A DNA stretch of 64,000 bases from the NCBI GenBank assembly GCA_947179485.1, contig OX359247.1, forward strand, positions 60,175,131-60,239,130, written 5' to 3'. Positions 1 through 63,719 of the stretch are shown in pieces. The position numbers were made by a program, and so were the translations under genes. Source of the DNA: Allacma fusca (lineage: Eukaryota; Arthropoda; Collembola; Symphypleona; Sminthuridae). Under the pieces are notes generated by a model. The model saw nothing but the letters and a program-made list of their open reading frames with translations, was not told where the DNA came from and searched no databases. The first letter of the stretch is position 1. Each line of letters opens with the position of its first letter.

Positions 1-1345
1 AAGTGAACATCCGTGCTTTGGAATGTCCCCTGTTATCCTATCCACTAAACCATGGACCTCCTTACTAGTAATAGTCATTGCTGTTACCTATCCGCTAGCT
101 CGGGCACATTACAAACATATACCTATATCGGTGCGTCAATCATAGCCTCTCCGATTACCTCTAGTAGGTCACAGGCTTATCGGTACTTTTGTCGGCACTC
201 CATCCGATCATCTCCGTGCTTGGAATGACTCGAACCCTACTAAACCATAAGGTTCCTCCTAATCTTCCTAGCCTCTCGGATTCTACGTATACTAAACTTA
301 TACACAACAATGATTCCGCTCACATTTCGGCCCTTGAATCCCTAAAAACTACGTAGATGAGAATTTTCTTATATGTATGCTTATGTACTATGCCAATGTG
401 TCCACGCTCAATGTACCTCGGCCCTTTGGACTAAATTTTGTTCAAACCTTAATTAAACTGTCCTAATCACCTCGGTGCTCATATTCGGCCCTCCCGATAT
501 AATTTTGTTCTCCGTACATACTATAATCTTTAGATGGTCTGATCTACCTATGCTCTCTAACTGAGCTGTATAGGTTTTGATTTGCAAACTGACTAACTGA
601 AATCTGATATGCTCCGTGCTCACATTCGGCCTTCCGGATTAACTTTAAAGTCCTAGTATTTGCCAAAACCATGACAAATTATGTCCTAATTACCCAGCGC
701 TCAACCGGCACTTCTGGTGGAAAAAAATGGAAAGATGGAAGAAGAAAAGATGTTTGTGAAAAGTTTATGATAGGTCCTATTGTTACCCGTGTAAACCTAC
801 ACATCAGGTAAAGAAAGTAATTTTCAGCGAAAGAGTTTTAATTGGGTTTTGCCCCCTAGCCATGGGGCTCGTAATTACGTAATTTGGAGATAAAGAATCT
901 AAAGACATTTGCGCTCAATCCCGGCCCTTCAAATGTACTTATATTAGAAGGAGAAAGATGTAGAGAAAGAAGAAAGTGAAAAATTATTTTTGAGTTATTT
1001 ACTGAAAGATAGATCATATTTTTGCTTTAAACTAAGCTTGGAAAGTGAATGTTGAGAGTCTTGTATTAATAAAAAATGTCCTAATTAATTGAAAGATTTT
1101 TTAATTGTGTTTTGGGTTCCTATCCCCTAGCCTGGGGTTTCCCAAAACTTTGAAAAGTAATTTAAAGAATTAAAAGAATTTCAACGCTCAAAAACGGCCC
1201 TTTTGAAATTAGGAACTTAAACTTACGAAGAGAAAGATTACTATTATACTGCGCACAAGAACGGCACTTCAGCCGGAATAGTTCCCTTTACAATACGAAC
1301 ACTGTTTATGCCTACGCTCAAAACCCGGCCCTTTAGGCGTCTAAA
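1..1345. repeat. Array of covarying hairpins with conserved loops
   Basis: I see about eleven copies of a short hairpin whose loop is conserved (consensus CGCTCA or TGCTCA, 2-8 free bases, then CGGCCCTT or CGGCACTT) but whose stem changes between copies and stays complementary. Clear copies lie at 127-155 (ATCGG/CCGAT), 312-340 (GATTC/GAATC), 400-431 (GTCCA/TGGAC), 472-497 (TCGG/CCGA), 613-638 (TCCG/CGGA), 694-717 (CCAG/CTGG), 905-936 (ACATTTG/CAAATGT), 1177-1210 (AATTTCAA/TTGAAATT) and 1308-1340 (ATGCCTA/TAGGCGT, with one G-T wobble). Weaker copies are at 179-208 and 1249-1272. A second type with loop GTGCTT sits at 7-26 and 208-228. A third type with a CCCCTAGCC-TGGGG core sits at 839-877 and 1110-1147. 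No coding potential is visible. The family is unknown to me. Confidence 0.75.
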
Positions 1346-4505: not shown

Positions 4506-5608
4506 TTAACTTAGAATTCCCTGTTCGTATTTCTTCCAAAATTGTATCAGCTTCGGGGGGGTCTCGAGTCCATGAACAGCAATAGCATTCTTTTCCTGAT
4601 AGGGTTTGTCTTTCTTCGACCGTTTTGGATTCCAATTCCATTTGTTCAAAATTAATTCAGTAATAGGGAAAGGTTTGATGCAAAGCTTGGCTGCAACGAG
4701 ACTCAGGTAAACATCATCCAAGTTTAAATGCTTCACAAAGGGAGATGCTAACACAAACTGTTGGGTCACATTTCTCGAATAAATGATGGCCGCTCCTGGC
4801 ACCAAACTTGGAAAAGTTTTGAAAGGATACTCATCCCAGGTTATGAACCATTTGTTTTTGCGATCCCCTTCCAAAAATAAACATATCAATGTTTAGTAAA
4901 TCCAAAACAGTAGGTAGAATAATTGAGATGATAAGCAATATTAATTCGTCACATCAATAGGTAAAAACAATTACTTTTAGGGAACACCGGTTCATTGTAC
5001 ACAAACCCACTCCAAAATATTTGCCTCCCTGGAATTTCAAATTCATACTTCCCATTGACTTTCCGGTTGCCCCTTTTCGGGTACTTCCTCGGTTGCCTCA
5101 GAAATCCGATGAGATTGTGCAGCGACACGTACATGTCATCATCGACCATGAACAAGAACTCATAATCCTTACAATATTCCAAGCCCCAATGGAGTCCGGC
5201 AAGGGTTTTGAAAGTATTGTTTCTGTACGTGTCTACGAAATTCGCAATAATAATGTCTTGGTGGTTGGTAACTTCCTCCATGAATTTCTCCTTGACGGAG
5301 ATGTCATTGTAAACTCCATGTCCCAGGATAAAAGCGTACTCAACTGGTACGTCTAATTGTTCCAAGNNNNNNNNNNNNNNNNNNNNNNNNNNNNNNNNNN
5401 NNNNNNNNNNNNNNNNNNNNNNNNNNNNNNNNNNNNNNNNNNNNNNNNNNNNNNNNNNNNNNNNNNNNNNNNNNNNNNNNNNNNNNNNNNNNNNNNNNNN
5501 NNNNNNNNNNNNNNNNNNNNNNNNNNNNNNNNNNNNNNNNNNNNNNNNNNNNNNNNNNNNNNNNNNATAGGGCTTTGTGTTTACCTCGGAGACGCTCATA
5601 CAATCCAC
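4506..5608 (-). CDS. Beta-1,3-glycosyltransferase, GT31, brainiac-like (partial at a gap)
   Basis: A Golgi type II glycosyltransferase of family GT31, which adds galactose or GlcNAc in beta-1,3 linkage to glycolipids or glycoproteins. The downstream exon part 4975-5366 encodes the core, with YAFILGHG and the metal-binding MVDDDMYV motif (DxD), followed by the WSGFVYNEPVFPK stretch. A 107-bp intron (donor GTAATT at 4974, acceptor AG at 4868) leads to the last exon 4506-4867 with KWFITWDEYP, a PGAAIIYS stretch and NLDDVYLSL, matching the DDVYLG-type motif of the brainiac/B3GNT group. About 200 unknown bases hide the region where the R-x-x-x-R-x-T-W motif and the stem would lie. Sequence beyond the gap (5567-5608) stays open, but a donor-like GAG|GTAAAC suggests it may be another exon edge. 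The signal anchor is not visible. Specificity within GT31 is inferred. Confidence 0.82.
5367..5566. other. Assembly gap (200 N)
   Basis: Exactly 200 undetermined bases lie inside the glycosyltransferase gene. The round number suggests a scaffold gap of nominal size, so the coding frame across it cannot be assumed. Confidence 0.99.
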
Positions 5609-9879: not shown

Positions 9880-10264
9880 GGGCAGCCCGTCCAATGGTCA
9901 AGGCAGACTTGTACTAAGTCTCCTTCCGTGAGTAGCTCACGGCGAATCCTCCGAGGAACCCTCGGCACTGTTTCCGTATTATAACGGCTAAGTTAAAACC
10001 TTTCACGTTCCCGCCTATTAAGCCTTATCCTTGACATAAAGCCCTGCTCTCGTCCAATCCTGGTCCAGTCCTGGTCCGCTGGCAAATATTTTGAATTGTC
10101 CAGTCGGTGTTTCTGTCCATGGTAAAACATAGTAATTGTTTTTTTGTCCTAAATATTTTTTTTTTGAAGTATTAATATTTTGATAATAATTTTCATAATT
10201 ATACCTACCTGTGTCCGGATCCATCCTGGTTTTGTGTGGTACCCCTTTTGCTATTATTATTGAC

Positions 10265-11065
10265 AAACATTTTTGGATTTTTTCCACCTAGGTAGTTGAC
10301 AAAATCAGAAAAGTTGACAAAAATTTTGGGATGTTTCTCCGCCTAGGTGGTTGACAAAAATTTAGGGATTTGTCTCCGCCTAGGTAGTTGACAAAATCAA
10401 AAAAATTGACAAACATTTTTGGATTTTTCTCCACCTAGGTAGTTGACAAAATCAGAAAAGTTGACAAAAATTTTGGGATGTTTCTCCGCCTAGGTGGTTG
10501 ACAAAATCAAAAAAATTGACAAAAATTTTTGGATTTTTCTCCACCTAGGTAGTTGACAAAATCAAAAAAAATGACAAAAATTTTTGGATTTTTCTCCACC
10601 TAGGTAGTTGACAAAAATTTAGGGATTTGTCTCCGCCTAGGTAGTTGACATAATCAAAAAGATTGACAAACATTTTTGGATTTTTTTCCACCTAGGTAGT
10701 TGACAAAATCAGAAAAGTTGACAAAAATTTTGGGATTTTTTTCCACCTAGGTAGTTGACAAAATCAGAAAAGTTGACAAAAATTTTGGGATGTTTCTCCG
10801 CCTAGGTGGTTGACAAAATCAAAAAAATTGACAAAAATTTTGGGATTTTTCTCCGCCTAGGTAGTTGACAAAATCCAAAAAAATGACAAAAATTTTTGGA
10901 TTTTTCTCCACCTAGGTAGTTGACAAAATCAGAAAAGTTGACAAAAGTTTTTGGATTTTGCTCCGCCTAGGTAGTTGACAAAATCAGAAAAGTTGACAAA
11001 AATTTTGGGATTTTTCTCCCCCTAGGTAGTTGACAAAAATTTAGGGATTTGTCTCCGCCGGGGCA
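10265..11065. repeat. 55-bp minisatellite
   Basis: About sixteen tandem units, mostly 55 bp, each with a CTCCRCCTAGGTRGTTGACA block, a TTGACAAAAATTTTKGGATT block and an AvrII-type CCTAGG palindrome. A few units are shortened to about 37 bp by loss of one internal TTGACAAA block. Some units differ at only one or two positions, implying recent homogenisation. Confidence 0.9.
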
Positions 11066-12160
11066 GTTGACTAACTGGGACACAGTTGGAATTTCGGTCA
11101 AAATTTGGTTACTTGGCAGTTTGGAACTTTTTCCACCCCCGTTTCGGAGCTAGCAGCTATCCAAGCAGGAAGACAATTTTACCGCATCAGATATTAGTAG
11201 GCGCCTGTTTCACTGGGTGAAAAGCATTTCCTAGCAAGTCCAACGTAATTGAAATGTCATTAAAAAAATGAATTTTCACTATCTCACGAATGCTCCTTTT
11301 ATAGTTTTTTATTATCATAACTAATCATTCACTTCCTGTTATTTTACACAAAAGGTGAATAATTTGTGAATATTTTCCGCCCGATTATTGCAGGATTATT
11401 TAACTTACATAGTAAAACAGGAGTAAGCAAGGTGGAAAAAATACTTATATGTAGGAATTTATATATATAAATATAAATATCCAGCCAAAAATCCTATTGT
11501 AGTAAATTCTGTTGTGGTTAGTTCAAATCATATTTCATCAGCTCATATTAAAAATTGTTGCCATACCAGCCACTAATATGAGGATGGGTTGAAATGAAAC
11601 CGGAAGTCTTATTTCCTCATAATATATACAATTTTTGTAATATAATTAAAGACGTAGTGTCACATAATTACCTTAGACTAGGTTAAAAGATTTCGTTTCT
11701 ATTCAATTTTGTAATGCCAACACTTTCGTATGGTACTGTTCATTTTAACTCCCAAATTCTCGCCCTTGTAATTCGGTACTCCAAGTTGGTAGTCTAAACC
11801 GCACATCATAAATGTAGATACAAATGCCGAAAATAGTTACTCTATGTTAAAAATGCCCACAACATCCTAATATAACAATATGGTTGAGGGTAAATCGTTT
11901 CATGGCACACTATACACGTGACTTATCTTTATATTTACTATGACACCAACTATATACTAATGTGGTAAGTTCTCTGCCTAGGTTTCCCGTGTTGTAACCT
12001 GGGTTGCAAAACCGAAAATTACTACTTTAGCGTTTCCATTTATGTTATCAAAACGCGAGTCCTCATTTTTTCCGTTGAAACCGTTTTTCAAAAATGTTTT
12101 TCCATCCCTGATTGTAACGTCGACATTCGACATGACGGGCGAACTGAAGTTGGCTTTACA
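11066..12160. other. Intergenic, nothing recognised
   Basis: AT-rich DNA with no gene or structured repeat that I can support. A 67-codon minus-strand frame at 11978-12181 runs into the next transposon and has no family resemblance. Confidence 0.5.
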
Positions 12161-14689: not shown

Positions 14690-15500
14690 CTAGAAACGTC
14701 CTGCAATCATGTTTGAAGTAGGAATATAATTTCCACTAGATAGAAAATCTTCCAACTTGGACAAACCTTCTAAAATATTAATTCCGTACTCCTTCGCATA
14801 TTTATCAAGTGCTATCACCTCGGGAAGGGCCTGGAATTTCTGAACTACTTGAATCACATCCGGCTGTTGCAAATAGAAAAACAAACGAATACCTTGCTCT
14901 GTCAAAACTTCCCCAGCCTTTTCCAGTTCCAGTTCAATCTCCCTGTACAATATTTTCAGAGCTTCGACAACCGGAACAATCACTTTCTTCAAAGCGGTAA
15001 ACAAAGGCGCAGCGTCCGGTCCGGTTAGGAAAATTCTTATACCTCGAACAATTGAGGGCAGCTCTGGGTACTTCTGCAAAGCTCTGTCAACAATGTCACG
15101 AACTTTTGGCACGCTTAACACCTCGATCAAATAAGTGCCTAATGGATTTTGATTTTCTGGATTCTGTTGATCACCAATCAATACTTCCAATTTGTTAATT
15201 ATGTCTTGAGTCGTTTTAATTACCTCTTGCCGTTCAAGAAATGTAGCTCGTAAATCGGAGAAGTCCTTACCAAAATTAACTGTAAATTAAAATTGGAATT
15301 AATTGATGTTATATCGTTATGATTAAATTTGACCATTTTGAGTCAAATAGATTTTTAAATTGAATATAAATTAGTAACTGTGCTGAATCTAAAACCTGGG
15401 ACTTACTTAATTCTGTATCGAAACTTTCCTCATACGAAAACTCTGAAGGTAAGGCTTGGACCGTTGCAAAGGCTAAACTAAACAGAAGAATGAGGATCAT
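14690..15500 (-). CDS. Secreted insect-allergen-repeat (G12-like) protein
   Basis: Two exons: 15407-15500 and 14690-15279, joined by a 127-bp intron with donor GTAAGT and acceptor TTTACAG, giving 227 residues. Translation starts at 15500 with the signal peptide MILILLFSLAFATVQALP. An in-frame ATG at 15551 lies too close to the expected transcription start. The body is alpha-helical and resembles the insect allergen-related repeat (PF06757): repeated pattern of leucine-rich helices with LPEVIALDKYAKEYGINILEG, and an earlier LSVPKVRDIVDRAL block. Members of this family are secreted or microvillar gut proteins of arthropods with poorly defined, possibly lipid- or detoxification-linked roles. Family assignment is from pattern only; the exon structure is firm. 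Confidence 0.65.
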
Positions 15501-17660: not shown

Positions 17661-19163
17661 TCAAAAACCATCATCTGCATTCTCAAACTGCACCAGGACA
17701 ATCAAGTACATTGTCAATGCTGACAAAATCTGCAATCACCATTAATAGAAAAGCATTTTGTTAATATACATAATTATCTACAGCAATCAAAGTAAGAATT
17801 TCATTTCTCTTACTGAAGTAAGAAGTCCTCGATTCAAAGTGAAATAATTGCATGGTTCAATTTTGGGAGGAGTTGATGAAATTGTCAGAGCCAGCATTTG
17901 AATTTTGGACCTCAGGAAGGTTGATAGCTGCTCAATTGGGAGAAAATTGAGCACATCGGTAATTTTTTGTGATTCTACTTGCAAATTCTCAGAAACATTT
18001 GCAAACCAATATAATTCCCCAATGAACATAACCAATGCTGGAATTGTGCCAAAGATATTTAATTTTAATCCTCGATGACCCCACACGAAGGAGAAAAAGG
18101 AGTAAATTAGTATAATGAGGATATCCAACAGAGTGTTCAGCATTAGTGTCAGACCAAAACATTTATTATATCGCTTAACTTCATCTTCAACCAGGTAATA
18201 CGCATCGATGCAACTGTTTATTAATTCTTCGGTTCGGCCATCGTTTTCCGAAACACCGTTGGTGGCACGCTCAATCCTCTCCATCCATGCGCTTTTGAGG
18301 GGAAGCGCTTTGGAGGAGACTCCCTTTACAGGTGAAATCGGGGGAATGTAAACAATATCAGGGAAAATCTTACTGCTGTAATATTGAAAGTCTGAAATTA
18401 TCTCATTGGGATTTAATTTTGCCTCATTCTTTGTAGACTTTACGTGGGATTGATTTTGAGCCTTTTTCGATACAGAAGTCAGCTCGATTTGGATCATCTT
18501 CAAACAGGTGGCATACATTTCAGGGAAAAAATTAACCCATAAATTAAATCCCGGATGAAGGAAACACGACAATGTCCAGAAAATAAATTCAAAAATATAT
18601 AAACTAGCTAAGGAATGAAGCTCTTCTACATACACTACACCAGAAACTATCATACAAATTCCGAAAATCCAAATTCCAAAAAATGCCCTTTTCTTTCCGC
18701 AACAAATTTCCTGAAACAAGCCTCCAAATTTTTCCTTGCCTCGAACATCTAAGAAATTCAAGTGTTTTGTGGAACAGAGCTTCTCCAACATGCGAATATT
18801 CTGTTGCCAGTTTTCTACTATTGTCTTCCCGCGCAATAAATTGTATAATTTTATGCCTTGGTAAAAGAATTGCGTCATGAAAGTCACCAGGCCCATCGCA
18901 AATCGATCCGTTGATGTTTTCAAAGTATTGGCAATCATAAAGTTGGATTGAGAAAATAATTGTAAATATATCCACAGTACCGCGACTCCAATCCAAAAAG
19001 AAACGTATAATGTTGAAATACTTATTCGTTTCCATTTTAAGGATTTCCCGGAAATGGTCAGAGGGAAATTCCCGATTAGCTTTGCCCCCAAAATAGCCCA
19101 GTAACCAACGTCTAACAAGTAAGATTCTATTTCTGCAAAACGATCTCCCTCACTTTGGTACAT
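17661..19163 (-). CDS. Gustatory receptor (7TM chemoreceptor)
   Basis: A ligand-gated cation-channel receptor of the insect GR/OR superfamily, in the plasma membrane of sensory neurons. Exon 1 (17814-19163) encodes 450 residues from MYQSEGDRF. It ends at LNRGLLTS, followed by donor GTAAGA. An 84-bp intron and acceptor GATTGCAG lead to exon 2 (17661-17729), which encodes ILSALTMYLIVLVQFENADDGF and a stop, for 472 residues in total. The last exon carries the diagnostic TYxxxxxQF-like motif as MYLIVLVQFE, split from the rest by the phase-0 intron typical of GR genes. Hydrophobic segments near residues 49-70, 140-165, 185-213, 335-360, 368-390 and 451-466 support a multipass protein. Without the small exon the frame would run on to a false end. 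The ligand is unknown. Confidence 0.88.
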
Positions 19164-21707: not shown

Positions 21708-24086
21708 ATGTTGACAAAAACGGAATACAAATTCAATTTGTGGTTGTTAAAGATTCTTTCGAGACTGGGGATATTTCCAATAACAGTGGATAAAACATCA
21801 GTCACAATATCTAGGGCGCCGTCAAATTTTCAGAGGCTGGTTTGGTACGCGTACATGACCGTAACAATTTCCCACTTTATTTACATAACTCTCCGGCTCG
21901 TGCAGTCCTTAATTTACAGGGAGCAATTTGTCCTCAGTCATTTTACTTTACATTTCAACTACTGCATTGGTAGTCTTATGTCACTAAGCTGGTATGTTCT
22001 CAATTTCGTTGTATGCCCGGATATTCCCATCATAATTTTTAATGAGCTTTTCGCTGAAGACAGTATACGGGATTACAGTACGTTTACAGATAAAGCATTA
22101 GTAGTTATTCATTCAATTTGCTAAAAGTGGATCTAATGACTCTTATGTCTGTTCCTTTGCAGTTCCAGAATACATTTCTGGCAGGAAGAAGACAAGATCG
22201 ATTTTCAAATTTTCCAAGCAGGAACTATTAGCCATTTTTCTTCAGCCTTGTCATTTAGTATGTGGTCTAACCGTTACCATTGCAAGTATTGCAAATCCAG
22301 ATATGAAATTGCTCTTGTACACTGCCTTGAATAACGACTACCAAAACTCACTGACGTTCAGCTTCCTCTTGGTCTTTGAGTACTTAATCCTGGTCTTCTG
22401 GACAAACTCCATCTATTTTACTTTAGAACTTCAAATCCTATTCTTTGAGAAGCTAACCACAACACTTGACTCTTATACCAAGTTTCAACTGTAAGTGATG
22501 ATCTTTTTGCATTTATTTTTAAAATGGAAATTAGATATTTTAAAAGACAAGACCGTCACAGGACACACCTTCCACAGTATTCAAACCATAGCATGATCTG
22601 TCTGCAAATGAGCAAGTACAAGCAGAAGAATGTGGTTCCATTATTGAGTGTTAGGGTTTCCGGGCGTTTTCAAGCGTTGCCAGAGGGCACCATAATGATT
22701 TACAGATTTTTCTACAGGGAAATTTGTTCATATTGGAACAAGGACATTTTAGTAAGCGGCATTGTGCTAAAAATTTTAAGCCCAACGAAGAAATGCTTTT
22801 ACAAAAATATTCATTGCATCAGAACCTTCTTTTAGATATTGCAATAGATATTGTAATAGTATAATACTTCTATGAATGAAGATAAAATTGATTTAGTTGA
22901 CGATAGATAGAAATAATTTCGACATTGTGGAGAAACAAAAATATTCATTGCAACACACGATCAGGAGGAAAAACTGTTTATGCATAATTATTATCTAATA
23001 TAATCAGAACCTCCTAATTGCAAATTGATAGATATTACAATAGAATAATTCTTCCGTGTATTTGAAAGGATAAAATTGAGTTAGTTGATGATATATACAA
23101 ATATTTTCGACATTGTGGGGAAACAAAAACATTCATTGCAACACACGATCAGGAGGAAAGACTGGTTATGCATAATTACGTTATAATAGATTCAGAACTT
23201 CCTTATTGCTAATTTAATAGATATTATACAACAGTTATAATTTCTTCCATGAATTGAAAAGATAAAATTGGGCTAGTTGACGTTAGATAGAATTATTGAT
23301 GACAGTGTGGAGAAAGAAAAATATTCATTACAATACAGTTCAAGATGGGACACTGGTTATGCATAATTACGACCCAATAGAATCAGAACCTCCTTATTGC
23401 TAATTTGATAGATATTACAATTGTATAATGCTTTTATGCATTGACAAGATAAATTTGAGTTAGTTGACGATGGATAGAAATATTTTCGACAATGTGCAGA
23501 CAATTTTGTTTTGTTCCACGGAGTTCCTTATAACAAGAGTAATTATACATAATACATTAATGCAGATCCCATTTACATTTCGAAAAACAATTAATTGTGC
23601 TTTTATAGAAAATCCGCTTCAAAAAACACTTTGAATACATGCTGCAAGAAAATCCAGAAGATTTCTCTGCTCATAAACCTATTCAACAGCAGCAATTCAG
23701 TGATTATCTTCATCTTGAAAGTCGTATGCGCTACCTTTGGTATCGTTAGTGGATTTTTTGCAGTGGAATACTTCGGACTGAATCCAGCCTTGGGTGTATA
23801 TAATTATTCCATTTCCATTGACATGAGCATCCTGTATGCAGTTACATTCGAGAAAGCTTTCCATATTCCGGACAAGATCCACTCTTTCAAGAACGAAATA
23901 TTAATTAAGGCCAGGAGACTTCAACTTTCCACGCCCGATCAGAAATATATAGAACGGCTTGTAAAGTCCATTCCAGAAGGAGGGATCAAAGTCGGGATCT
24001 TCAAAACGTTTGAAAGAATTTCCACGCCTGAATTCGTCGATTTTCTTGTGAGGAACATCGCTGTTCTTCTAATCACCATTAAATAA
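21708..24086 (+). CDS. Multipass receptor-like protein, GR-like (391 aa)
   Basis: Three exons: 21708-22077, 22163-22490 and 23609-24086, joined in frame through GTACGT and GTAAGT donors and TTTGCAG and TTTATAG acceptors, giving 391 residues. The start MLTKTEYKFNLWLLKIL is the first ATG in frame. Hydrophobic segments lie in exon 1 (YMTVTISHFIYITLRL, CIGSLMSLSWYVLNFVV), exon 2 (a pair around HLVCGLTVTIASI and SFLLVFEYLILVFWTNSIY) and exon 3 (SVIIFILKVVCATFGIVSG). The N-terminal pattern (LSRLGIFPITVD) is like arthropod gustatory receptors. However, the C terminus ends STPEFVDFLVRNIAVLLITIK with no TYxxxxxQF motif. It may be a lineage-specific branch of the superfamily or a separate family. Function unknown. 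Confidence 0.62.
22800..23510. repeat. Intronic tandem repeat, about 190-bp unit
   Basis: Intron 2 of the receptor-like gene holds nearly four diverged copies of a unit of about 188-190 bp. Anchors GACATTGTGGAGAAAC recur near 22921, 23111, 23300 and 23488, with TTATGCATAATTA words in each complete copy. It accounts for most of the unusually long 1118-bp intron. Confidence 0.85.
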
Positions 24087-28750: not shown

Positions 28751-30490
28751 TAGTGCTGTAATATTGTACTCGTTTAGTTTTGTACTTTTGTATTGTTTTT
28801 GTCTTTGGTACAAAACTAAACAAACAATATCCATTTTCGAGATACAAAACTAAAACAAAAACAAAAGAGGAATTGAAAAAAACAATACAATCCAAATTGT
28901 ATTGTTTCAAGGTTCTAGAGACGCTAGAAATTTACTAAAGTGATTGTTGTAATAGATTTCTAGAGCACATAGGAATTGATTTGTGTAATTGGAATCGTGA
29001 AAAAACACGTCAAAGCACAAAAACTGGGCATTGACTAATTATTGGTAGATTCGCCTATATAAAATATACACTTACATTGAGTATGTCATTCTAGTGTCAT
29101 GTGACCATTAATGCGCCAATAAAGTCAATCATAGGTGATTTACTACTAGTTACTCACCAAGTTTCATTATAGGTCATGCGCCCCTTAAAACCGTAATCTG
29201 TCATGACCCTATTGGTGACCCAATAAGGTCAATTTGAGGTCACATGACCTTACTGTGTCACTAGTAGTCACATGACCTCAGATTGACCTTACTGTGTCAC
29301 TAGTAGTCACATGACCTCAGATTGACCTTACTGTGTCACTGTAGTCACATGACCTCAGATTGACCTTACTGTGTCACTAATAGTCACATGACCTCAGATT
29401 GACCTTACTGTGTCACTAATAGTCACATGACCTCAGATTGACCTTACTGTGTCACTACTAGTCGCATGACCTCAGATTGACCTTACTGTATCACTAATAG
29501 TCACATGACCTCAGATTGACCCTACTGTGTCACTAATAGTCACATGACCTCAGATTGACCTTACTGTGTCACTAATAGTTGCATGACTTTTACTGTTACC
29601 ATATTGATTAATAAAGGTTGTAACGGCTGAGGCCACTATATCAACCAATAAAACCCTATTATTATTATTATATTGATTATTAGACGCCACCGATAAGATG
29701 TACTAGTTTTAGGTTACATTTAATGTGGATTAGTAAGATGTCATGAAAAAGGTCGTGAATTAAATCAATTAATGACAATTCAATGGCATCAGATATGATA
29801 CCAATGAATCGGTACTGATCAATAAAATTGGCTAACCGTATGGTTTAAATGTTGACCTGGATAAATCTAGTCTGTGTCTAACAAAGACAAAAGACCTAGT
29901 CTAACAAACGAACTATGCGATTTGTAAATGTAGTCCACGCATAGGGGACATTTCTACATCGATGAAATAGGTGGTAAAAGCCAACGGCTGAGCCAATTGA
30001 AAATATAGATATCAGAGCCCACGCGTCTACTCTATCCATTCTAATTTTAAGCAATGGTAGTGAATATTGTTTATGAAATTATGTTCTTCTGGAAATTACA
30101 ATGTGGTTATTACAGGGATTATTCACAAATAGGTTGGTGCCACAGAATTGCACCCTTCAAAATTCGACCGTCAACAGATTCAATGCATTTTATATGGGAG
30201 ATTCGTCAATGACTGGTTTTTTGATCTTTTACGTAATTTTTAAACAACTAAATTGCACAAATCAATTCCTACGTGCTCTTGAACTCAGATACAACTATCA
30301 CTTTAGCAAATTTCTAGCGTCTTCTAGAACCTTAGAACAATACAATACAGATTGTACAAAAACAAAAACAATCTGATAGAAGTACAAAACAAAAACAAAA
30401 CTCGGAGTACAAAACAATATCTTAGTTGTACTACTTTTGTAATTTTCGCCAAAGTACAATACAATACTAAAAGGACAAATTACAGCACTA
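28751..30490. mobile_element. Non-autonomous hAT-like element with long TIRs
   Basis: Begins TAGTGCTGTAAT and ends ATTACAGCACTA, flanked by CATGCATG (28743-28750 and 30491-30498). That duplication is itself palindromic, so it could also be the outer part of the TIR. The terminal repeats extend with divergence for about 300 bp each side, sharing for example AAGGTTCTAGA and GACGCTAGAAATTT. The interior holds the 39-bp array at 29259-29590. No coding frame is convincing. Confidence 0.8.
29259..29590. repeat. 39-bp tandem array of TGACCT half sites
   Basis: Eight units, 39 bp apart (one 38), start at 29273, 29312, 29350, 29389, 29428, 29467, 29506 and 29545. Each contains TGACCTcagatTGACC(T), that is, two AGGTCA half sites in direct repeat with a 5-base spacer, and most also carry GTCACATGAC. 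A palindromic AGGTCAcaTGACCT stands at the left edge (29257-29270). Confidence 0.92.
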
Positions 30491-61838: not shown

Positions 61839-63719
61839 ATGGCCCGCACACTTGTATTTGTTGAGACAATTTTTATAAATCTTATCATGACAGTTGGCAT
61901 GGGCCAAAAAGGACGTTGCCAGAAAATTGGCATACTTTTCCAGTCCGACATACAATTTATATTCGAAAACAATAACGTTTCTTTTGAGCTACCTCAGTTT
62001 TTATTACCAATCCCTAGGACTCTGATATCCATGCATTCAGAATTATACCAAAAGGGTCGTTTTAATAAACATAAAAATATTCTAACAAACAAGCGATACC
62101 TACCTCATTGGACTTCCCATTTGATTTTCTGGCTTCCTAAAAACGACTCAGCTACAACATTAGTACATAATTTGTTAGTGGAAAATGGGCACTCCATCAA
62201 AGACTTGTTTGTTTTTGCGAGCCATTTCCCAAAAAAATTACTACAAAAACATCATTTATTTTCGCGCTTCAAATTTAAATACACATCTGATTTCCCGCCA
62301 AGCGCTATCTGCCCAATTTTGGAACCTTTAGAAGTGCTTAAAGTAGCCGGTGCGATGATCCCGCCCCATTTAATAAAAACTTCTAGTGGGTTTGATGGCG
62401 GTAATTTTCAAGTTTTGTTAGCCGTAACAAAAAAGCTCAACTATTCCTTTGAAATTGATGCTTCCAATATTGGAACGGGGTCTTATCGGAACGGGACTTG
62501 GACGGGAATGACTGGTTCAGTTTACTACAAAAAAGCGGATCTGTGCATTTTAAATTCCGCATCATTAGAACGCCATGACATCCTGGATTTCGTTTACATT
62601 GCATCGGACCATATTGAATTCGGGACGAGATTGCCAAGTATTTACATTAAATGGCAAACTGTGGTTTACCCCTTTACCACCGAACTCTGGGGTTTACTTG
62701 GTTGTTGTTTTGTTGGAACTGCCATCCTTTTACATTTAGAGCTGCACTTGCGCAGTGAATTTAATAATTATTATTGTACAAACTCTGGGTTACTGATCAC
62801 CTACAAAATCATGATGGACCAATCAAGTGAATTAAAAGGTTTCTCGGAGAAGTTTAAAATATTTTTGGGACTCTGGATGCTATGTTACCTAGTTATAGGA
62901 TCTGCCTATAAAAGTGATTTGGTATCATTTTTTTCAACTCAAGCGGAAGAAGAGGTTCCTGAAGATTTCGACCAATTAGACCTACATCAAGAATATTCTA
63001 TCGTATTTAATTATTTAGGCGGAACATCCTATAACTACTTCAATAAATCCAGAGATGGCGTCGCTACACACATTTTGCCACGCGTTATTAGCTTTGAAAG
63101 AGATCCCGGAAAATGTATACTTGAAGCTGTCCTTAATTCCAAAACTGTTTGTATTTCCTTTCATACTCCTCTAAAAACAGTCATAGCTAGAAATGTGAGC
63201 CTCCCTGGAATAGCGGAGTCAATTGTGCTTATTTCAAGACCAATAAGGAGCTTCTCTACCGGATTCGCATTTCAAAAAAAATCCGTGTTGACTGATGATT
63301 TTGCGGGGCTTGTCGGAAGGTTACGGGATGCGGGAATGCCAGGGAAGTGGAGGGAAAATATTTACGCTTACTTTATGCACAGGGGAAAGTTATGGATCAA
63401 GAGTAAAAATTCAAAGTTGTTATATCAAACGCTGGTCAGGATCTGGGAAGAGCGGAAGCGTGAGTCTGATAGTTTCACAATAGAAAATCTGACCGGGGCC
63501 TTTGTAATACTATTTGTTGGGCATATCTTTAGTTTTGCAGTAGAATTGTGGGAGTTTTTGCAGGCATATTGGGTAACTTTAAGACTGAGATTACTTTGGG
63601 CTCGACTAGCCTTTTATGAATGCTTGACTACGAAAATGAAATTGCTTCAGGGTTCTATGCAAGTGTTCAAATTAAACTCAAGTTTTGCTGATATTTTGCA
63701 AGTGAAAGCATGCAAATAA
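61839..63719 (+). CDS. Divergent ionotropic receptor (IR)
   Basis: A variant ionotropic glutamate receptor, used as a ligand-gated cation channel for taste, smell or other chemosensation. One uninterrupted exon encodes 626 residues from ATG at 61839 (signal-like MARTLVFVETIFINLIMTVG). The ligand-binding S1 half lies at about residues 172-275 (IPPHLIKTSSGFDGGNFQVL and NGTWTGMTGSVYYKKADL). The first membrane helix is near 283-303 (WGLLGCCFVGTAILLHLEL). The pore loop and second helix near 344-366 end in the SAYKSDLVSFF motif, matching the SYxxxLxxFLT of IRs. S2 spans 370-545, and the last helix is near 550-573 (GAFVILFVGHIFSFAVELW). The short N-terminal part lacks a full glutamate-receptor ATD, as in most divergent IRs. 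An AATAAA at about 63951 can serve polyadenylation. Ligand unknown. Confidence 0.88.
   Translation: MARTLVFVETIFINLIMTVGMGQKGRCQKIGILFQSDIQFIFENNNVSFELPQFLLPIPRTLISMHSELYQKGRFNKHKNILTNKRYLPHWTSHLIFWLPKNDSATTLVHNLLVENGHSIKDLFVFASHFPKKLLQKHHLFSRFKFKYTSDFPPSAICPILEPLEVLKVAGAMIPPHLIKTSSGFDGGNFQVLLAVTKKLNYSFEIDASNIGTGSYRNGTWTGMTGSVYYKKADLCILNSASLERHDILDFVYIASDHIEFGTRLPSIYIKWQTVVYPFTTELWGLLGCCFVGTAILLHLELHLRSEFNNYYCTNSGLLITYKIMMDQSSELKGFSEKFKIFLGLWMLCYLVIGSAYKSDLVSFFSTQAEEEVPEDFDQLDLHQEYSIVFNYLGGTSYNYFNKSRDGVATHILPRVISFERDPGKCILEAVLNSKTVCISFHTPLKTVIARNVSLPGIAESIVLISRPIRSFSTGFAFQKKSVLTDDFAGLVGRLRDAGMPGKWRENIYAYFMHRGKLWIKSKNSKLLYQTLVRIWEERKRESDSFTIENLTGAFVILFVGHIFSFAVELWEFLQAYWVTLRLRLLWARLAFYECLTTKMKLLQGSMQVFKLNSSFADILQVKACK

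Follow-up and report, generated by a model that had tools for sequence, protein, structure and literature searches.

The window, by which we mean the whole 64-kb stretch of DNA analysed, has a GC content of ~36% and contains a run of N at 5367-5566. When 10 translated stretches of the window were searched against Pfam, 4 of the 10 gave matches, which identify the following genes.

4949-5356, - strand, galactosyltransferase gene
14690-15190, - strand, insect allergen related repeat gene
17787-19163, - strand, 7tm chemosensory receptor gene
61839-63719, + strand, ligand-gated ion channel gene, ionotropic-receptor-like

The window appears to be arthropod DNA. The frame at 1705-2058, beside the hairpin array described below, is without a Pfam match. 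Tandem arrays are seen at 10260-11071 (units of about 55/92/147 bases), 22844-23500 (unit of about 188 bases) and 29245-29587 (unit of about 39 bases).

The hairpin array consists of nine related hairpins, all on the + strand, which occupy 312 to 1340 at one locus; because the window starts at base 1, the array may extend to the left. An earlier note on this DNA had claimed nine clear copies with a shared loop. All nine were located, and every stem sequence quoted there is present in the window.

312-340, + strand, c1: stem GATTC (312-316) / GAATC (336-340), loop 317-335
400-431, + strand, c2: stem GTCCA (400-404) / TGGAC (427-431), loop 405-426
472-497, + strand, c3: stem TCGG (472-475) / CCGA (494-497), loop 476-493
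613-638, + strand, c4: stem TCCG (613-616) / CGGA (635-638), loop 617-634
694-717, + strand, c5: stem CCAG (694-697) / CTGG (714-717), loop 698-713
905-936, + strand, c6: stem ACATTTG (905-911) / CAAATGT (930-936), loop 912-929
1177-1210, + strand, c7: stem AATTTCAA (1177-1184) / TTGAAATT (1203-1210), loop 1185-1202
1249-1272, + strand, c8, weakest of the nine with 3 bp: stem CTG (1249-1251) / CAG (1270-1272), loop 1252-1269
1308-1340, + strand, c9: stem ATGCCTA (1308-1314) / TAGGCGT (1334-1340) with one T-G pair, loop 1315-1333

The copies follow the consensus stem–Y–GCTCA–N(2-8)–CGGCCCTT–stem, in which the loop is nearly fixed and the unit spans 24-34 nt from stem end to stem end. GCTCA, or GCACA in c8, begins with its G at 318, 406, 477, 618, 699, 913, 1186, 1253 and 1316 on the + strand, and the leading pyrimidine is C in seven of the nine copies and T in two. 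Conservation is confined to two sides of the loop, Y-GCTCA at the 5' side and CGGC(C/A)CTT at the 3' side. The exact loop GCTCA-N(0-8)-CGGCCCTT occurs in five of the nine copies and in none of 100 dinucleotide shuffles; in the other four the boxes carry one to two changes (c3 CGGCCCTC, c4 CGGCCTTC, c5 CGGCACTT, and c8 GCACA with CGGCACTT). Stem lengths from c1 to c9 are 5, 5, 4, 4, 4, 7, 8, 3 and 7, the count for c9 including one T-G. Counted without the leading pyrimidine, five loops are 17 long and the others 15, 18, 18 and 21; with it they measure 16-22 (c5 = 16), which corrects the 18-22 bases given before. The spacing of copies is not constant (63-273), and four of the eight spacings are not multiples of three. 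A coding role was rejected, since loop lengths (15, 17, 18 or 21) and spacings keep no frame. A regular ~70-base period was rejected as well, a 71-base period being found in 147 of 2,000 random layouts.

A single register serves all nine copies: the left stem arm stops one base 5' of GCTCA and the right arm directly abuts the 3' box. In this register the nine stems sum to 45 contiguous Watson-Crick pairs, or 47 pairs when the G-U of c9 is counted. Left arms set against the right arms of other copies give a mean of 0.39 pairs per stem (maximum 2), and no arm permutation among 200,000 reaches 45 pairs, the largest reaching 40. When 42 arm-offset combinations were compared, two others re-read this helix shifted outward by one or two bases (36 and 27 pairs), and the remaining 39 gave at most 8. 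Two-sided changes are found in all eight stem columns of the alignment of nine copies, with the outer four columns unpaired in 4, 2, 5 and 4 of them. For this sample of nine paralogues from one locus of a single genome, the covariation score is 0.571 against 0.190 in shuffled alignments; none of 500 shuffles reaches 0.571, and slid registers give at most 0.220. A weaker measure, the number of pairs changed on both sides, is 8 against 5.4, with 16 of 500 shuffles as high. G-U accounts for 1 of the 47 stem pairs, a lower share than we would anticipate for drifting RNA helices. In leave-one-out scoring with loop and stem, for which we chose the stem weight, every copy ranks above all non-family sites on both strands; with the loop alone, eight of nine copies rank above background and c4 is equalled by 2 sites. 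The earlier proposal of selection on structure around a fixed loop is supported by this covariation, and the hairpins are a true, selected family at one locus.

Unconstrained folding of isolated copies yields the proposed stem together with an inner helix in six of nine copies on the + strand and in none on the - strand. The fold of these six comprises the stem, a 1-by-4 internal loop and a GCU/GGC inner helix. With more flank included, five of nine copies adopt the proposed form; the minimum free energy fold of c8 differs from it. The inner helix exhibits no covariation: two of its pairs are invariant, and the third is U-G in eight copies and A-G in c8. Folding energies of the copies range from -3.8 to -8.5 kcal/mol, and folding 60-base windows across the array gives energies indistinguishable from background, whichever strand is folded (p 0.51 and 0.35). 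Longer stems are AT-rich, and across the nine copies stem length and GC content are strongly anticorrelated (r = -0.90, one-sided permutation p 0.001; Spearman -0.85, p 0.0035), as would be expected if sufficient stability rather than sequence is preserved. Stem strength, not stem sequence, is thus perhaps what has been kept alongside the loop and the adjoining stem. Stability is not constant, however, since stem duplex energies spread from -0.1 (c8) to -7.8 (c9) kcal/mol.

The kinship of the copies was assessed from the sequence in and around them. An alignment of c3 with c4 spans 36 columns at 83% identity (E 0.002) and consists mostly of the hairpin, and a single G-C to C-G exchange separates their two stems (TCGG/CCGA and TCCG/CGGA). 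Outside the hairpins, flanks are similar in four of seven comparisons, each matched by at most 3 of 500 shuffles that preserve base content but not dinucleotide content. These are the upstream flanks of c6 and c7 (equalled by 1 of 500 shuffles, the comparison taking in the left stem arms), the downstream flanks of the same two copies (3 of 500), the downstream flanks of c5 and c9 (0 of 500) and the upstream flanks of c3 and c5 (1 of 500). The purine-rich downstream flanks of c5 and c6 (15 of 500), the downstream flanks of c2 and c3 (41 of 500) and the further downstream sequence of c3 and c4 (420 of 500) are not clearly related. Because flanks are shared in some copies, tandem duplication is favoured over insertion into nine palindromes, and duplication followed by long divergence appears, from these alignments, to be the best account of at least part of the array. 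A box, TGTCCTAAT, is also found on the + strand at 459, 682 and 1077, the first two occurrences lying just upstream of c3 and c5.

Four further sites were considered as tentative members.

127-155, + strand, tentative diverged copy: ATCGG/CCGAT stem; family model E 0.13 in 1,600 bases, 5.1 in 64 kb
179-208, + strand, tentative diverged copy: ATCGG/CCGAT stem, CGGCACT in loop; E 2.9 in 1,600 bases, model match 188-211, not significant
546-575, + strand, tentative, same geometry: ACCTA-T-GCTC...GAGC-TGTA-TAGGT; from geometric search; family model E 8 in 1,600 bases
783-811, + strand, tentative, same geometry: TTACC-C-GTGTA...TACAC-ATCA-GGTAA; from geometric search alone; not significant

The first two are the weaker copies of the earlier note; their membership in the family is tentative since the family-model E values are only 0.13 and 2.9. 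Extra copies on geometry alone were rejected: a search for a stem of at least 5 and an inner helix of at least 3 gives 8 hits in the bin formed by the first 1,400 bases of the + strand, of which 5 are already known copies, and other bins likewise reach 8. With known copies removed, geometric hits are no commoner than background. The family model, which scores the nine copies it was built from at 31.2-40.7 bits, finds no additional copy in the rest of the window, where the best site reaches 13.1 bits, in agreement with the leave-one-out ranking.

Known families and relatives were sought in several collections. The covariance models of Rfam 15 gave no match at gathering score across the whole 64 kb. 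Below gathering, 4 weak matches fall in 1-2000 (best E 0.15) and 2 in 890-1350, the best of the latter being MIR2655 on the - strand (E 0.065, 25.7 bits, where gathering requires 122). Viral contigs contain at least 120 loop matches; among the matches listed, one has a 5 bp stem, one a 3 bp stem and the others 0-2 bp. Bacterial and archaeal DNA contains 109 tandem loop matches in 102 stretches, all with stems of 0-2 bp, and these matches are not independent, many coming from repeats within the same genomes. The stretch surrounding one tandem loop match (L121) is without a stem by eye. No related sequence was found among phage records (5 weak matches, E 0.3) or plasmid records (2 weak matches, E 1), and in the literature searched the motif is not described. 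A repeat of the form ...GCTCA...CGGCCCTTT was observed in one gammaproteobacterial metagenome-assembled genome, in at least seven stretches (L136, L156, L161, L167, L175, L190 and L195) and without a stem; it is a separate bacterial repeat.

The array is likely to be a new noncoding RNA element, for which we infer a function as follows. Our tentative leading interpretation is that it belongs to a noncoding RNA or UTR in which the repeated hairpins serve as docking sites for a single RNA-binding factor. The array would be read from the + strand, and each unit would be a short stem of free sequence presenting a two-part motif, whose 5' part is a single pyrimidine and GCUCA and whose 3' part is CGGC and CCUU, or a close variant, with a variable cap between. 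GCU may pair with GGC in a short inner helix, so that a 1-by-4 internal loop remains. The motif would presumably be read by one RNA-binding protein or RNP, and the many copies would allow multivalent binding, with the transcript acting as a scaffold or sponge. A putative lead towards such a partner is that in eight of nine copies the first four loop bases, YGCU, fit the YGCY preference of Muscleblind-type proteins. The units would have been multiplied long ago by tandem duplication, after which spacers drifted and stems changed by paired changes while the loop was held. In favour of this scheme are the pairing in one register, the covariation, the leave-one-out ranking, the relation of stem length to GC content, the tandem layout free of a reading frame and the folding of isolated copies on the + strand but not the - strand. 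Against it count the ordinary folding energies, the drop to five of nine proposed folds with more flank, the uneven stem energies, the 3 bp of c8, the scarcity of G-U, the inner helix that does not covary and the origin of all nine copies from one locus. With slightly more reserve, we also entertain the possibility that the array represents a new arthropod structured-RNA family, a tandem two-part loop motif on free stems that is either read by a factor or forms a minimal catalytic core.

Several known RNA systems offer partial parallels. Like the array, the Xist A-repeat has tandem conserved cores with diverged spacers in one RNA; unlike it, the A-repeat has another sequence, and its cores are conserved rather than being a fixed loop on free stems. 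A transcript that gathers a factor through many copies is favoured because a fixed two-part loop on free, repeated stems resembles a structure- and loop-specific binding site and because roX offers a precedent. The Drosophila dosage compensation lncRNAs roX1 and roX2 resemble the array in carrying a short motif within stem-loops that recur along a fast-evolving noncoding RNA; the stem-loops are the functional units, their copy number matters, and in distant species the motif is often the sole recognisable feature (PMC4719309). The roX motif is an 8-nt roXbox, unlike the loop of the array, and roX boxes pair with inverted boxes, which places the motif in the stem. In the array it is the loop that is fixed, on stems of free sequence. 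Dictyostelium Class I RNAs close with a stem formed by their two ends, bear a conserved ~11-nt motif by the 5' stem, lie in intergenic clusters and arose by duplication (PMC7919456). The short closing stem is shared with the array, where its pairing and covariation are seen, but the Class I motif sits beside the 5' stem only and the array is conserved on both sides. Class I RNAs also have another motif, are known from social amoebae and carry a conserved DUSE ~60 nt upstream of the start; in the array, where a unit measures 24-34 nt, the repeated box noticed upstream is TGTCCTAAT, close to c3 and c5. The array may therefore be said to work like roX stem-loops or to be built like Class I RNAs by analogy, with membership in neither established.

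The Class I likeness raises the alternative of a cluster of tiny noncoding RNA genes, in which every copy would be transcribed separately as an RNA that has a closing stem and contains a conserved motif. Besides the terminal stem, motif, clustering and duplication origin reported for Class I RNAs (PMC7919456), the upstream box before c3 and c5, with its third occurrence at 1077, is in keeping with this idea. However, the units are very short, the box stands before two of nine copies only, and spacing down to 63 leaves little promoter room, and we regard such a cluster as somewhat unlikely. Selection could instead act on DNA, with a cruciform or single-stranded hairpin bound by a replication, recombination or chromatin protein. 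The near absence of G-U and the marginal RNA folding energies would fit, but the sole non-Watson-Crick pair is T-G when read on the + strand and A-C on the opposite strand, and the possible inner helix exists only as + strand RNA; we regard DNA-level selection as unlikely. It is quite unlikely that the array is left over from a mobile or satellite sequence that formerly used the hairpin to replicate or package itself, and that it now has no function for the host. Tandem diverged copies with shared flanks and the two weak, broken-looking copies at the left would agree with such an origin, but phage and plasmid records gave weak matches only, no other copy lies in the 64-kb window, and the paired changes require long selection after duplication.

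Hairpins that mark cut sites in a precursor RNA, cleaved by a protein or a new small ribozyme to free spacers or units, would account for the tandem layout and for a core that is small, fixed and repeated within stems of free sequence. Such processing marks are decidedly unlikely, given that no ribozyme or other Rfam family was matched and spacing is irregular; to our knowledge, a core of ~13 fixed bases is also below the size of known self-cleaving classes. The earlier note had offered another reading, a very small mobile unit inserted nine times at palindrome centres, and removing the loop does leave perfect or near perfect palindromes. A mobile unit of this kind requires unrelated flanks at each copy; the similarity outside the hairpin in four of seven comparisons (the other three are unclear) and the paired exchange between c3 and c4 speak against it, and it is very improbable. 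Chance is barely conceivable, and nothing was found in its favour. That loop-anchored stems arise as often by chance, the objection foreseen in the earlier note, fails against shuffles, permutations and the viral and bacterial/archaeal loop matches, and covariation and leave-one-out ranking likewise argue against it.

Sequence drift makes the functional noncoding RNAs of invertebrates difficult to detect. With nine diverged copies in one kilobase, covariation can be measured in this array from a single genome, and its fixed motif can be searched for in other genomes and used to seek a binding partner. Were the array transcribed, as our preferred reading of repeated docking hairpins would have it, the RNA families of animals would gain one with a clear trade of structure for sequence.

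Other repeated elements were observed in and beside the array. The elements TCCGTGCTT...ACTAAACCAT occur in two copies, at 10-57 and 213-252, and resemble tRNA remnants on the - strand. A tRNA array or its remnants (- strand stretches at about 10-57, 213-252 and 530-580) was rejected, as ARAGORN found 0 genes and Rfam none. A second hairpin type, CCCCTAGCC(A)TGGGG, is found twice inside the array, at 829-868 and 1090-1138, in two blocks that can be aligned to one another.
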